64,000 nt of DNA, taken from Panopea generosa. Its lineage: Eukaryota; Mollusca; Bivalvia; Adapedonta; Hiatellidae. Made by a program: the position numbers and the translations under genes. How positions within the stretch are numbered: position 1 is the stretch's first letter; the number at the start of each line of letters is the position of its first letter. The stretch lies in the NCBI GenBank assembly GCA_029582155.1, contig CM055901.1, forward strand, positions 51,217,206 to 51,281,205. Reading direction: 5' to 3'. The notes below the pieces were generated by a model. The model saw only the letters and a program-made list of their open reading frames with translations. It was not told the DNA's origin and did not search any database. Shown here one piece after another: positions 4,701 through 13,700 of the stretch.

Positions 4701-7700
4701 TGAAATTCTCCTATGCAACAGAAACATCGGGATGGGGTCATTTTTAACCCTAGGGACACCTTTTGAACAAATCTAACAAAACTATAGTTGGTTATCATTA
4801 CTACATAAACATTTTGAAAATCTGTTGGCCCGTTCATGAAAAGAAGATTTTTTTAAGTTTTGGACTATTTTTAGTAACAGTGGCCATCTTGAATTAAAGA
4901 TAGAAAAAAAAATCTTCTCTATAGTCTCCTATGCAATAGAAACATCCATGTGAAGTTTCAGTTTAATTGGCCTAGTGGTTTCAGAATAAATTAAAAAAAG
5001 AGAACTTTCTGTTTTCCCATAGTACCCCTTTGTAAAATTCAAAGTCCCCTTACAGGGCCCCTATAAATTTTAGCCCCTAAATTCTTATCTGCAATCAAAC
5101 CCCTACACATAGGGATAATTTATGTGAAATATGAACAAATCTGACATATCAGTTCTTAAGAAAATAATTTTAGTAATTCCCAATTTTTACTCTTTTGGGG
5201 CCCCTCCTGACCCCTTAAAACAGTGGAACCCAGTCATTTTTACAAATCTGAACCTCCTTCACTAACAATGCTTCTGTGAAGATACAGGCAAAATCATTTC
5301 CATTTTTAAAAAAAAAAATAATATTACAACGACATGTGTCCCCTAATTCAACCTGTGGGGCGAGGTCATTTCTAACCCTAGGGACACCATTTGAACAAAT
5401 CTAACAAAACTATAGTTGGTTATCATTACTACATAAACATTTTGAAAATCTGTTCAGCTTCATGAGAAGAAGATTTTTAAAGGTTTGGACTGTTTTTCAG
5501 TAACGGCAGCCATTTTGAATTTCAGATAAAAAAAAATATCTTCTGTATAGTCTCCTATGCAATAGAAACATCCATGTGAAGTTTCAGTTTAGTTGGTCTA
5601 CCGTAAATCTCCAAGTATAAACCACACCCAAGTATAATCAGCAGGTGATTTTGAAGCCAAAACTGGTCGAAAAAAGCTAGTATCTGTCCATAATCCGCAG
5701 GCATGAATCAGATGAATCAGCTGTTTACCACATCCATCATTTTGAAATCCCAACCAAAGTGAAAGATGAATTTTGATTGGCTAATTATTGAGTAACGAAA
5801 TCGAGACTGGTGTACTGCATAACTTTGTAAAAACGTAGGTAAAACGTTTTGATGTGATGTATAGTGTGTTGGAGACAATAAAACTTGCAAGTATAAAATG
5901 GTGTTACCGAAATTATTTTTATGTTTGTGTATTTGGGTAAAATTTTAATTAATCAAATACCACCATGCACAAAATTTTAAATGATAAATTACCACCATGC
6001 ACTAAATAAAAAAAATAGGTTAAAATCCCCTTTCTTCCTTTCTTTTATTGTAACACTTTGCAGAATTACTAGTCAGGGTGTTTGCCTACTTTCTTTGAAG
6101 TACGTTTTCAGAGAAAGTGCTGCTAACAGACGACAGACGACGGACAATGCGCCATCGCATAAGCACTTCTGGCCTTTGGCCAGTAGAGCTAAAAATCATG
6201 CTGGAATAAATATATAAAGAAAAAATATTACCTCTTTAATAAAAAAATACCATGCTGGAATTAATAAATAAAGAAAAAATATTACCGCATTCATAAAAAA
6301 ATATCATGTTGGAAATAATATATTAAGAAAAAATATTATTTCTTTCAAAAATAAAAAAATCATGCTGGCATTAATATATAAAGAAAAAGTATAAGCTCTG
6401 TCACAAAAAAAATATCATGCTGGAATAAATATATAAAGAAAAAATATAACTTCTTTCATACAAAAAATATCATGCTGGAATTAACATATAATGAAAAAAT
6501 ATTACTTCTTTCATAAAAAAATCATGCTGGAATTAATATATAAAGACATAATATAACCTCTTTCTTACAAAAAAAAAATATCATGCGTTTTTTTCCTCAT
6601 AACAACCAAAAAAAAAAAAAATCCCAACAAAACAACAAATTGTTACCAGGAGAGGACGGGCAATATTCGTCATCCTCAATTATTTTAGCAAGTCCAAAAT
6701 CAGCAACTTTGACAACGTTATTATACCCCACCAAAACGTTTCGAGCGGCAAGATCTCTGTGAATCAGCTTATGTTGTTCTAAATAGGACATGCCGCTAGC
6801 CACCTAGAATTATGAGAATTACAAATACTGTAAGTAACTGTGGAAAAAAAATATTGTCAGATTTATCTCCCTTTGCAAGTGATGTCACAGTTGCTCCCTT
6901 TGGAGAGATGTAATCTGAAAAGTAGGATGACTGGTCTGGGATTTTCTCTACATTTATGTAAACAGTTTGGGTACCTATACTGTTGCACCATATGGTAACA
7001 GAAGCTGTCTTCAGAAGACAAAATATTTTTTTAGATTTTTTTGTTAATGGCAAAAATAATGGTAAATTAAAAGTCTTCCAAAATACAGGTAACGATAGGT
7101 ATACAGATAGGAGTACACTACTTTCTTTTATTTAAAGATTCCTATAGAGCTTTGAGTTTCTCAAAGACTTATAAGTTGTATGGTATTTAGTGTCACTTTC
7201 AACTTTTCAGTCATATCACGACAGTGTCTGCTTAAAACATTATTCTAAGCGCTGCAATATTGAAGTTTCATGCTGCAGACACATAGTATGATACACCACT
7301 CAGACATAGAACAGCCCAAGCGATGAAACTTCTAGAATCATTTTTTCAAGTCTTTAGACTTATTATAATGTAACTGCCAAGTAAATAACCCCATAAGAGA
7401 AAAGTGTGTGTCAAGTCAGCCCACAAATTCCAAATGTTGAGCCTTGCATAGACACTAAACCGTGGTCTCTCGGTGGTCAGAACTGCAACTTGATCAAGAG
7501 TCACAGCTATACCCAAGCCGAGCGACAATAACTCATTGATATTGTTGTTTTTAAATGTATTAGCAGCCATTGGATATAACAGTTATTACATTATTCTGTG
7601 AATATTCCTTCATGAAATCAGTGGACCAGTCATAGCATTAGAAAAGCTAAAAAAGTGTTAGTGGGATTATTGCACATTTAAAGGTGAATACAGCCAAAAT

Positions 7701-10700: not shown

Positions 10701-13700
10701 GTGTAACAAAATAATCGATCAGGGAAAGATGGGCGAATACGCACTCAAATCGCATATACGTTTTGTATATTAATTTTCCAGAAAAATAAGTGGGGGCATT
10801 TATTAGAGTGGGGGCGTTTATAAGGGAATATACGGTAGCTGTTCAAAGATTATCTCGATCTTTATATATAACTGGAGTATGTGTATATATACTGGGATAA
10901 AAAAATGAAAGCAACAATCAAAAACATCCACTATCCTTTACCACAAAATTAAAAATATTAAAAATATCGGAAACCTGTTTCCATTAAATCTCTTTTAGTT
11001 TGCCACAACAGACAATGTTGACCCCAATCAGCCTAGGAGTGACACTATGATTAAGGTATACTTCGTGTGGATTTCAGTTGCGGAATTATCATTAAACCCT
11101 TCTATATTATAATGGACTGGTCCACATTTATGGAACAGTACAGTACAACAGAACTATAATATTGATGAGAATGGGTTGTCTTAAAGGCAATGTGCCAAAA
11201 AAAAAAAAAAATGGCCATATATGTTTAAAAAATATATATATAAAAAAAACAAAATTAAAATAAACACAAAGCATCTTACTATCATTCAAGAATTAAATAC
11301 AAATTATTTGTATTATTAATTTATTAATTGAAACTTCGCCAAAACATGACCAAAGACAGTATTTTAATCGGAATGGTAAACTTAAAACAAAATGTCTGTT
11401 TTAAATATCACAAACATATTGCTTGGTGACCATCACCTGGTCATTCAGATTCTTTTTAAGATAAAAAAAATCCAACAATATGTAACCAATTTAACGGATC
11501 AAACTGAAATCTAAATGAAATCACACAACTTATTTCATACATTACAAAATATGTTGCAATTTTTGGCGGGAAATCTATTTATGTCTAACCTGGACACACA
11601 AGTCAAGAAAGAAAACCCTTTTCAATCTATTATTTTGTCATATTTAAGAAGATATCCTTGTGGCATTGAAGGCTCAATGATAATATATGGGTATAATATT
11701 TCTTTGGCTAGCTATAAAATTTTGAAGAACCCCCCTCCCCCCCCCCCAAATTTACTTTCTTTAACTTAATGTCACTTTGAGAAAGAAGAATGACATTTTT
11801 TTTTTTTAATTTATTCAATATTGAAATGAATTATTGCTAACTTGAATGTCTGCTTCTATAATGACAGCTAGATACTTGTTTAATAATTTAGCGCTTTTTA
11901 ATATTTTCATGTGACGAAGAATAATGGATTGTGCTTCGTGTGATTAATGCATTAGGCAGGAGGAACAAGCGTTAGTGTTTCAATAAGGTATTGCTGATCC
12001 AAACACGCATTTACCGTGCTTCGGATTGTACTCGTCATCTTCGATAATTTTCGCCAGACCAAAGTCGGCAACTTTCACAATACTATTATCACCGACTAAA
12101 ATATTTCTTGCTGCAAGATCTCGATGGATTAATTTATTTTGCTCTAAGTATGACATGCCACTTGCAATCTGCAATATTTATAATAAATATTTTAGAATAA
12201 CATTAAAATGTGATGTCTCTGAAAGGGAAAACATGATATTTTGAACGATAAATATAATTGGAGGTGACAATTCAAAGGAAAGTATGTTGGATGCACAAGC
12301 CACAGGCAGCAGGTTTGATCTTAGCCTCAACATCATGGCCTCTGAAAAACATCATTCAGTACTGCTTCAACCCAGGAAATATTACTTGAGAACAATTCAT
12401 TGATGACCAAGCTGAAACAAATAAGTACACTCCGGTACCGTGATATAAAGCAAATTCCATTATAACTTGGTTTTTGCTTGGCTCACACTTTTTCGCCAAT
12501 TAGCCTTGATTAGAACAAACTGTTATGACCATTACCTCATGGTGGTTTTAAAGATAGTTTCAGTAATTGATTTATGCCAGCATTGAGTATTAACAGTTTG
12601 TAATAATCAGTGTGATGAATGTTGAACGTGCCAAATATGGAAGCCATTTGCAAACTTTGTTATTATCGAGTGATCATGTGATCAAGCAACCAAGTGCAAG
12701 TTTTTATATAGTTATATAGACATCACTCTTTACATCCGGGTGTAAAAAACAGTGTCTATATCAAAACATGAAAATGTTTTTCTATTTTTTTTTCTTTTTT
12801 ATTAATTATATACACATCTAAGTGTATCAGTTGTAACCAAATACGAAGTATATCACATTACAATGCAAACATTACCACTCACAAAAGAGTCGGACAGCAA
12901 AATAGGTGTGAACAACCAACTTTTTCAAGGTATTTATCTCTATAATGCGATCCGTGTATAGCCGTTTTCATTTTATGTACCCTAAGATCTGCGTTATAAC
13001 AGAACCCGAGTGTATATCACAAGAGAATCACTTATTTAAGATGACTGCAGGGACATTTATTATTTTCAATGAAATTTGATAGAAACGAAATCTTAATCAT
13101 AAAATATAAATATAAATGTGAGAACTGTTTTTGTTCCATTAGATACACAAAGCACTCTAGTGGAAGAGTATCAGACACAGGGTCGAATAGTAGGGGTGAA
13201 TAATGGGAACAAATGTGGCATAGGAAATGTTATTGCCATATGTACAGCAAGTATTACAAATTTATTTCTTAAGTCCGGCTAGGGTTAAAGAAGAAATATC
13301 TTATCTATAAATGTGATTCTCCAAACAACACTGAAGAGAAAGTCCGGTCTCTATTTGATATTATTACACTTCCACCTCTTAAAAAGGCTTTATTGTTTAG
13401 AAAAGAAAATTGTGAACTGCACATCTCGACTTAGGCATATACATGTATCTATTATCTCGATGTTACCATTAGTGACAGCATCTGTAAAAACTGCAGGCCC
13501 AATGCCAGTTATTTGTCATATGATTGTAGTCTTCATTCAAGAATTAATTTCTCACAATCAACAATTCTCAACAATGGTATGGCAAAAAAACACGATATGT
13601 ATGATAGAAGTTCAGCAAGTGACGAATGGTAGATTTCTTGCACACCGGATAAGGATATCTGCATTTTTACCAGGGTTTGATATTTCTATCTCACCATAGG

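Follow-up and report, generated by a model that had tools for sequence, protein, structure and literature searches.

The locus and its probable alternative exons

A Src-family kinase gene lies on the reverse strand of the DNA analysed here, a stretch of 64,000 nucleotides of Panopea generosa (the window; 34% GC) that starts at C8:51217206 on contig C8 of a 1.47 Gb assembly in 39 contigs, and within this gene the activation segment of the kinase is encoded twice, by exons A and B. Specifically, exon N (15163-15419, minus strand, 257 nt) codes for the kinase N-lobe and hinge common to all isoforms and ends in phase 0; exon A (12015-12168, minus strand, 154 nt) runs from HRDLAARN to just beyond the activation-loop tyrosine and is the ancestral-like copy; exon B (6647-6803, minus strand, 157 nt) is an alternative version of the same segment, one residue longer and apparently derived; and the shared exon C (1611-1742, minus strand, 132 nt), in phase 1 at both ends, extends from the P+1 loop to PYPG. 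Each of these exons has an AG upstream and a GT downstream, and the coordinates, borders and phases assigned to them by an initial annotation of this DNA are correct to the base. Searches of the window with A and with B found them to be the sole copies of the segment, the other matches having E values of at least 0.7.

Exons A and B are both intact, begin in phase 0 and end in phase 1, leaving 1 base over that exon C accepts. When the exons are spliced in silico, both N-A-C and N-B-C keep an open frame to the end of the gene's last exon, in line with the in-frame joins to N and C noted in the initial annotation; N-A-B-C reaches a stop about 2 codons beyond the A/B junction, in agreement with its statement that inclusion of both shifts the frame; and N-C, with neither exon, stops about 6 codons beyond the N/C junction. 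The reading frame thus allows exactly one of the two exons and is broken by double inclusion or skipping. Exons A and B are, in all probability, mutually exclusive alternative exons of an ordinary and complete Src-family gene, which would have arisen by tandem duplication long ago, the terminal exon having been duplicated separately. In such a gene the spliceosome would insert either A or B between N and C, and messages with both or neither of the two exons, being out of frame, would be removed by nonsense-mediated decay. Steric or U12-type incompatibility was rejected as the cause of the exclusion: the intron between A and B measures 5.2 kb and the donors GTAAAT and GTAACA do not resemble the U12 consensus.

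Divergence of exons A and B

The HRDLAARN catalytic loop and the DFG motif are the same in A and B, as are the other residues that do the chemistry, including the activation-loop tyrosine (EDDEY), so that both products would be expected to be active kinases. The initial annotation had spoken of alternative catalytic-loop exons and of different active-site segments, a description that does not stand because the active-site residues are equal; A and B are rather alternative activation-segment exons. Before the activation-loop tyrosine 6 residues differ, mostly mildly, and 3 of them fall at the turn between strands beta7 and beta8 (GDNSIV in A, GYNNVV in B). The marked change comes directly after this tyrosine, where A reads NPKHG and B reads CPSSPG, a stretch that is longer by one residue and contains a Ser-Pro pair. 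On the Src fold this stretch would lead from the autophosphorylated tyrosine to the P+1 loop, which binds substrate, and because of this linking position exchanging A for B would be expected to alter activation kinetics, tyrosine recognition or substrate choice.

As far as the activation-loop tyrosine, A and B agree in 41 of 47 residues and in 13 of 47 codons, and 28 of the 41 shared residues are written with different codons, so that both counts of the initial annotation (6 of 47 residues differing, 28 of 41 recoded) were reproduced. Fourfold degenerate sites differ in 11 of the 14 comparable cases. The comparison of nonsynonymous (dN) and synonymous (dS) divergence that the same annotation had proposed gives a dN of 0.061 and a dS that is saturated and not computable. 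Moreover, placing the 37 nucleotide differences at random 20,000 times yields a mean of 24 residue changes and a minimum of 15, against the 6 seen, and only 24% of the random placements are free of stops. Because dS is saturated at this dN and residue changes are far fewer than under random placement, the duplication, as judged from the two coding sequences, is old and both copies have been maintained for a long time by selection at the protein level, as the initial annotation had proposed. Likeness between the introns flanking A and B (2 kb on each side) is limited to 2 short, weak matches of 21 nt (E 0.007) and 43 nt (E 0.002), and a recent duplication recognisable by similar flanking introns was rejected on this ground.

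The same pattern bears on the idea that exon B is a poison exon, included together with A to shift the frame and switch the gene off, with a coding sequence useless as protein. The near-immediate stop created by A followed by B would indeed make the double-inclusion message a target of decay. However, a frame shift alone would suffice for that role, whereas B splices in frame to both N and C with conserved phases, and selection has acted on its amino acids and not on its bases, as the recoding of the shared residues indicates; a poison exon is therefore highly unlikely.

A complete Src-family gene

A search with the human SRC sequence recovered the SH3, SH2, linker and kinase exons in order. 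The SH3 domain is encoded by two exons on the minus strand (first half, 35384-35498; second half, 32258-32371), the SH2 domain by two more (first part, 29331-29434; second part, 27527-27676), and the SH2-kinase linker with the glycine-rich loop by an exon at 24222-24386, also on the minus strand. The first coding exon (43149-43320, minus strand) was chosen among 5 candidates in a scan of the window and a further 29.7 kb for reading frames that open with ATGGG and have a phase 1 donor; the chosen candidate is SH4-like, with a predicted start at 43320, an MGNCC beginning of the myristoylation/palmitoylation type that includes Gly2 for myristoylation, a unique region, and an open frame that enters the SH3 exon in phase through its phase 1 donor.

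Pfam SH3, SH2 and tyrosine kinase domains were found above the cut-off and in this order in both isoforms scanned, the one built with exon A and the first terminal exon (D1, described below) and the one built with exon B and the second (D2), with kinase scores of 306.6 and 294 bits, respectively. Among solved chains, SRC is nearest to the N-A-C stretch; with B-C-D2 as the query, a two-domain chain of EGFR heads the list (118.9 bits per domain), followed by SRC entries at about 230 bits in one stretch. The activation-loop tyrosine in A and B and a tail tyrosine in D1 and D2 are both present. Judged by its predicted product, the gene is a complete Src-family kinase in which every family feature tested was found, in accordance with its original classification.

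Duplicated terminal exons

Downstream of exon C, at a distance of 1.6-3.6 kb and outside the window past its start, two further exons are present, D1 (C8:51216972-51217177) and D2 (C8:51215197-51215405). Both encode the C-terminal part of the kinase from helix G on and the regulatory tail, both accept phase 1, and each carries its own stop and a tail tyrosine, the tails reading TEPSYRESDN in D1 and TEPNYKEADEV in D2, next to TEPQYQPGENL in human SRC. D1 and D2 agree in 50 of 66 residues and 21 of 66 codons (dN 0.18, dS saturated), and random placement of their changes (20,000 trials) gave at least 28 residue changes against the 16 seen. Helix G differs (VERGY in D1, VPNGY in D2), as does the tail, and substrate docking or control by Csk may differ in consequence. 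Since D1 carries a stop, the use of D2 would require D1 to be skipped or not to be reached; AATAAA words are present after both exons and carry little weight in AT-rich sequence. The exon order A-B-C-D1-D2 suggests that A/B and D1/D2 arose by two separate duplications and not as one block, and no further duplicated exon of the gene was found in 84 kb around it.

Four isoforms (A or B combined with D1 or D2) are open, with 522-524 residues, so that alternative use of the two terminal exons could place up to four kinases behind one SH4-SH3-SH2 module. The earlier proposal that one gene could make two kinases with the same SH3 and SH2 domains stands insofar as A and B each give an open frame, and was incomplete insofar as D1 and D2 raise the possible products to four.

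Putative ancestral and derived copies

Within the gene the closest relatives are the paired exons themselves: A and B are nearest each other, with 83% identity and a next best of 67% among the genes compared, and so are D1 and D2, with 78% and a next best of 62% among the same genes. In trees of these short segments (7 and 6 rows, human SRC included), the branches leading to A and D1 measure 0.045 and 0.053, and those leading to B and D2 0.20 and 0.22; A and D1 thus look ancestral, and B and D2 derived. The faster evolution of B and D2 would suit the possibility that they are fossils of an old duplication, now out of use. Yet at saturated dS, unselected copies would have lost their frame and splice sites, whereas dN is only 0.06 between A and B and 0.18 between D1 and D2, and the splice sites are intact in both genomic copies of the gene (see below), which leaves the fossil explanation a very slim chance.

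A genome-wide search with B-C-D2, in which 98 matches were listed and 150 of 216 candidates scored, revealed no retrocopy of a B or D2 message among the matches listed, and exon-sized matches outside this gene and its second copy had at most 67% identity. One Src-type paralogue on the same contig (C8:76353155-76366780), in which the catalytic loop reads HRDLRAAN and the introns next to the activation segment are the same, has one activation-segment exon, whose borders, placed by eye, and phases are as in A and B; no second copy of its four kinase exons was found in 29.7 kb at E below 0.2. A single activation-segment exon is therefore the likely starting state. Two other genes of this type were encountered. 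The first (C8:28229164-28240990) has a different intron inside the activation segment and resembles the FRK/Src42A type; the second (C14:50501939-50513167) is Src-like, has HRNLGARN as its catalytic loop and GFG in place of DFG, and by these changes looks like a pseudokinase. A scan of bacterial and archaeal contigs for stray animal sequence gave 2 loci, both bacterial kinases, at 29-32% identity.

A second genomic copy

A nearly identical copy of the gene lies 286 kb away on the same contig (C8:51501702-51547007), with all 12 exons intact and the array in the same order, N-A-B-C-D1-D2. Exon bases differ between the copies at 8 of 1,935 positions, with one residue changed in the whole protein (T60A) and 172 of 172 bases the same in the first coding exon, and introns at 258 of the 25,694 bases compared (about 1%, or 0.4-2.4% by intron, tandem repeats excluded).

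The presence of this copy indicates that the region is duplicated in the assembly, and it might be asked whether B and D2 stem from a second, partial Src gene or from a misassembly that interleaved two genes. The array order, however, is the same in both copies, a single N and a single C were found for each (84 kb searched around the first copy, 79 kb around the second), and N and C occur at close identity only at these two places among the genome-wide matches listed. B would have no other exons to join, and the divergence of A from B far exceeds that between the copies. An origin of B and D2 from two merged genes is, on this evidence, hardly credible.

Several observations weigh against the reading of A/B and D1/D2 as alternative exons in use. 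The second copy is a haplotype or a young tandem duplicate and offers a weak test of selection on B and D2: between the copies B shows 0 changes in 157 bases and D2 0 in 209, and at the intron rate the probability of no change is 0.21 for B alone and 0.025 for B and D2 jointly, so that, with introns differing by only about 1%, the comparison tests little. The segments are too short for their trees to settle any fork around A, B, D1 or D2. Among 22 inverted pairs detected in 1743-15162, no convincing intron pairing that would enforce the exclusion was found, in a search run without a shuffled control. Lastly, we infer the use of B or D2 in messenger RNA from the sequence of one genome.

Two kinds of inverted pair were set aside in that search: the best one (53 nt, 81%, 13883-14003) is a local hairpin inside the intron between N and A, and the long-range pairs are short, AT-rich and 71-94% complementary, and were not built upon. 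The introns around A, B and C also contain long tandem repeats, at 7863-9228 (units of about 34, 101 and 135 nt), 9646-10008 (63 nt) and 2925-3692 (147 nt).

Candidate regulation by RBFOX-type sites

Just downstream of exon B lies a 55-nt tandem repeat (6191-6586, minus strand, 7.2 copies) with 7 GCATG words, the RBFOX-type motif, on the gene strand, and this repeat could act as a splicing enhancer. GCATG occurs 6 times in the 400 nt after B, always in the repeat, and 3 times in the 153 nt before D1, whereas both 400-nt flanks of A lack it. An exon is favoured when RBFOX binds downstream of it and repressed when RBFOX binds upstream (PMC10676425). By this rule, sites after B and before D1 would favour B and D2 together.

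The test of this idea was conceived after the sequence had been seen, 8 motifs were examined, and the sites after B stem from one repeat expansion. In 20,000 circular shifts the GCATG total around the alternative exons was 11 against a mean of 3.2 (P = 0.03, post hoc); at least 6 words after B were reached with P = 0.005, and the B and D1 counts jointly in none of the shifts, both again post hoc and with the B sites counted from one repeat. The alternative flanks were hit in 3 of 8 cases (P = 0.36), the constitutive exons had 6 words against a mean of 6.7, and 2 other words out of 731 rank above GCATG. Two further observations speak against control of this kind, namely 2 TGCATG words located 255-273 nt upstream of D2, where the rule would predict repression of that exon, and 1 GCATG inside each of exons A (at 12158) and B (at 6793). 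Motifs for STAR, NOVA, PTB, MBNL and CELF and runs of U gave nothing notable save a U-rich tract after B, which is the same 55-nt repeat.

Contig C2 carries two matches to an RBFOX domain, separated by 5.7 kb: one has 83% identity over 36 residues, with a single stop in its frame, and the other 75% over 24 residues. A further cluster of GCATG words, 11 on the gene strand in 0.5 kb and spaced mostly by about 36 nt or double that, lies in the intron that separates the first coding exon from the SH3 exons (36686-37168).

The two cassettes might together form one switch that yields either a canonical Src, made with A and D1, or a derived one, made with B and D2, with the same membrane anchor, SH3 and SH2 and with RBFOX-type control favouring the derived form in RBFOX-positive tissue, although this remains a tentative and rather doubtful proposal. 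Under such a switch, the surroundings of the activation loop, helix G, the C-lobe and the regulatory tail would be exchanged together around the shared exon C. If true, splicing would change the catalytic identity of a Src kinase, and one gene would do what paralogues do in other animals.

Comparison with known systems

The contributions of SH3/SH2 wiring and of catalytic specificity are hard to separate by means of paralogues, since both differ, and a gene in which the wiring stays constant and the activation segment and tail alone are exchanged would amount to a natural domain-swap experiment. Such a gene would show how few changes after the activation-loop tyrosine, in helix G and in the tail alter activation, substrate choice or control by Csk, and it would make the C-lobe a further region in which splicing may diversify Src genes. 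Among open-licence full texts, as judged by the titles and abstract starts listed, no Src-family kinase with duplicated activation-segment or terminal exons was found. The oyster kinome study reports an expansion of the Src family, and words beginning with splice or alternative occur 0 times in its main text (PMC4883820).

Within the family, mutually exclusive exons are already known from FYN, so that the duplication of the activation-segment and terminal exons would be a new version of this arrangement, with splicing predicted from the exon sequences. The exons concerned in FYN go by the names 7A and 7B. FynB and FynT arise from tandem duplicated, mutually exclusive exons (PMC9741552). The likeness lies in the family, in the single use of tandem duplicated exons and in an altered kinase part behind the same SH3 and SH2; the difference is that the FYN duplicate spans the linker between SH2 and kinase and the beginning of the N-lobe, including the ATP site, whereas here it is the activation segment of the C-lobe and the terminal exon. 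The two duplications would be independent events because the exon is not the same.

Exon 6 of the JNK kinases lies between kinase subdomains IX and X, that is, after the activation segment. JNK1 and JNK2 (MAPK8/9) combine an alternative exon 6a or 6b with different C-termini, giving four products per gene (PMC8699841). They are the closest in logic, with an alternative exon inside the kinase that alters substrate binding, multiplied by alternative C-termini, but they are serine/threonine MAP kinases without SH3 and SH2. A parallel outside the kinases is unc-32, whose product is a proton pump subunit. This gene has two separate alternative clusters and an RBFOX site in an intron of one of them (PMC3585155). 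The gene described here would share with it the two alternative clusters and, if its GCATG words are RBFOX sites, such a site in an intron of a cluster; in unc-32 the arrangement is experimentally proven and RBFOX acts on one cluster only, whereas in Panopea generosa the regulation is a lead suggested by sequence.

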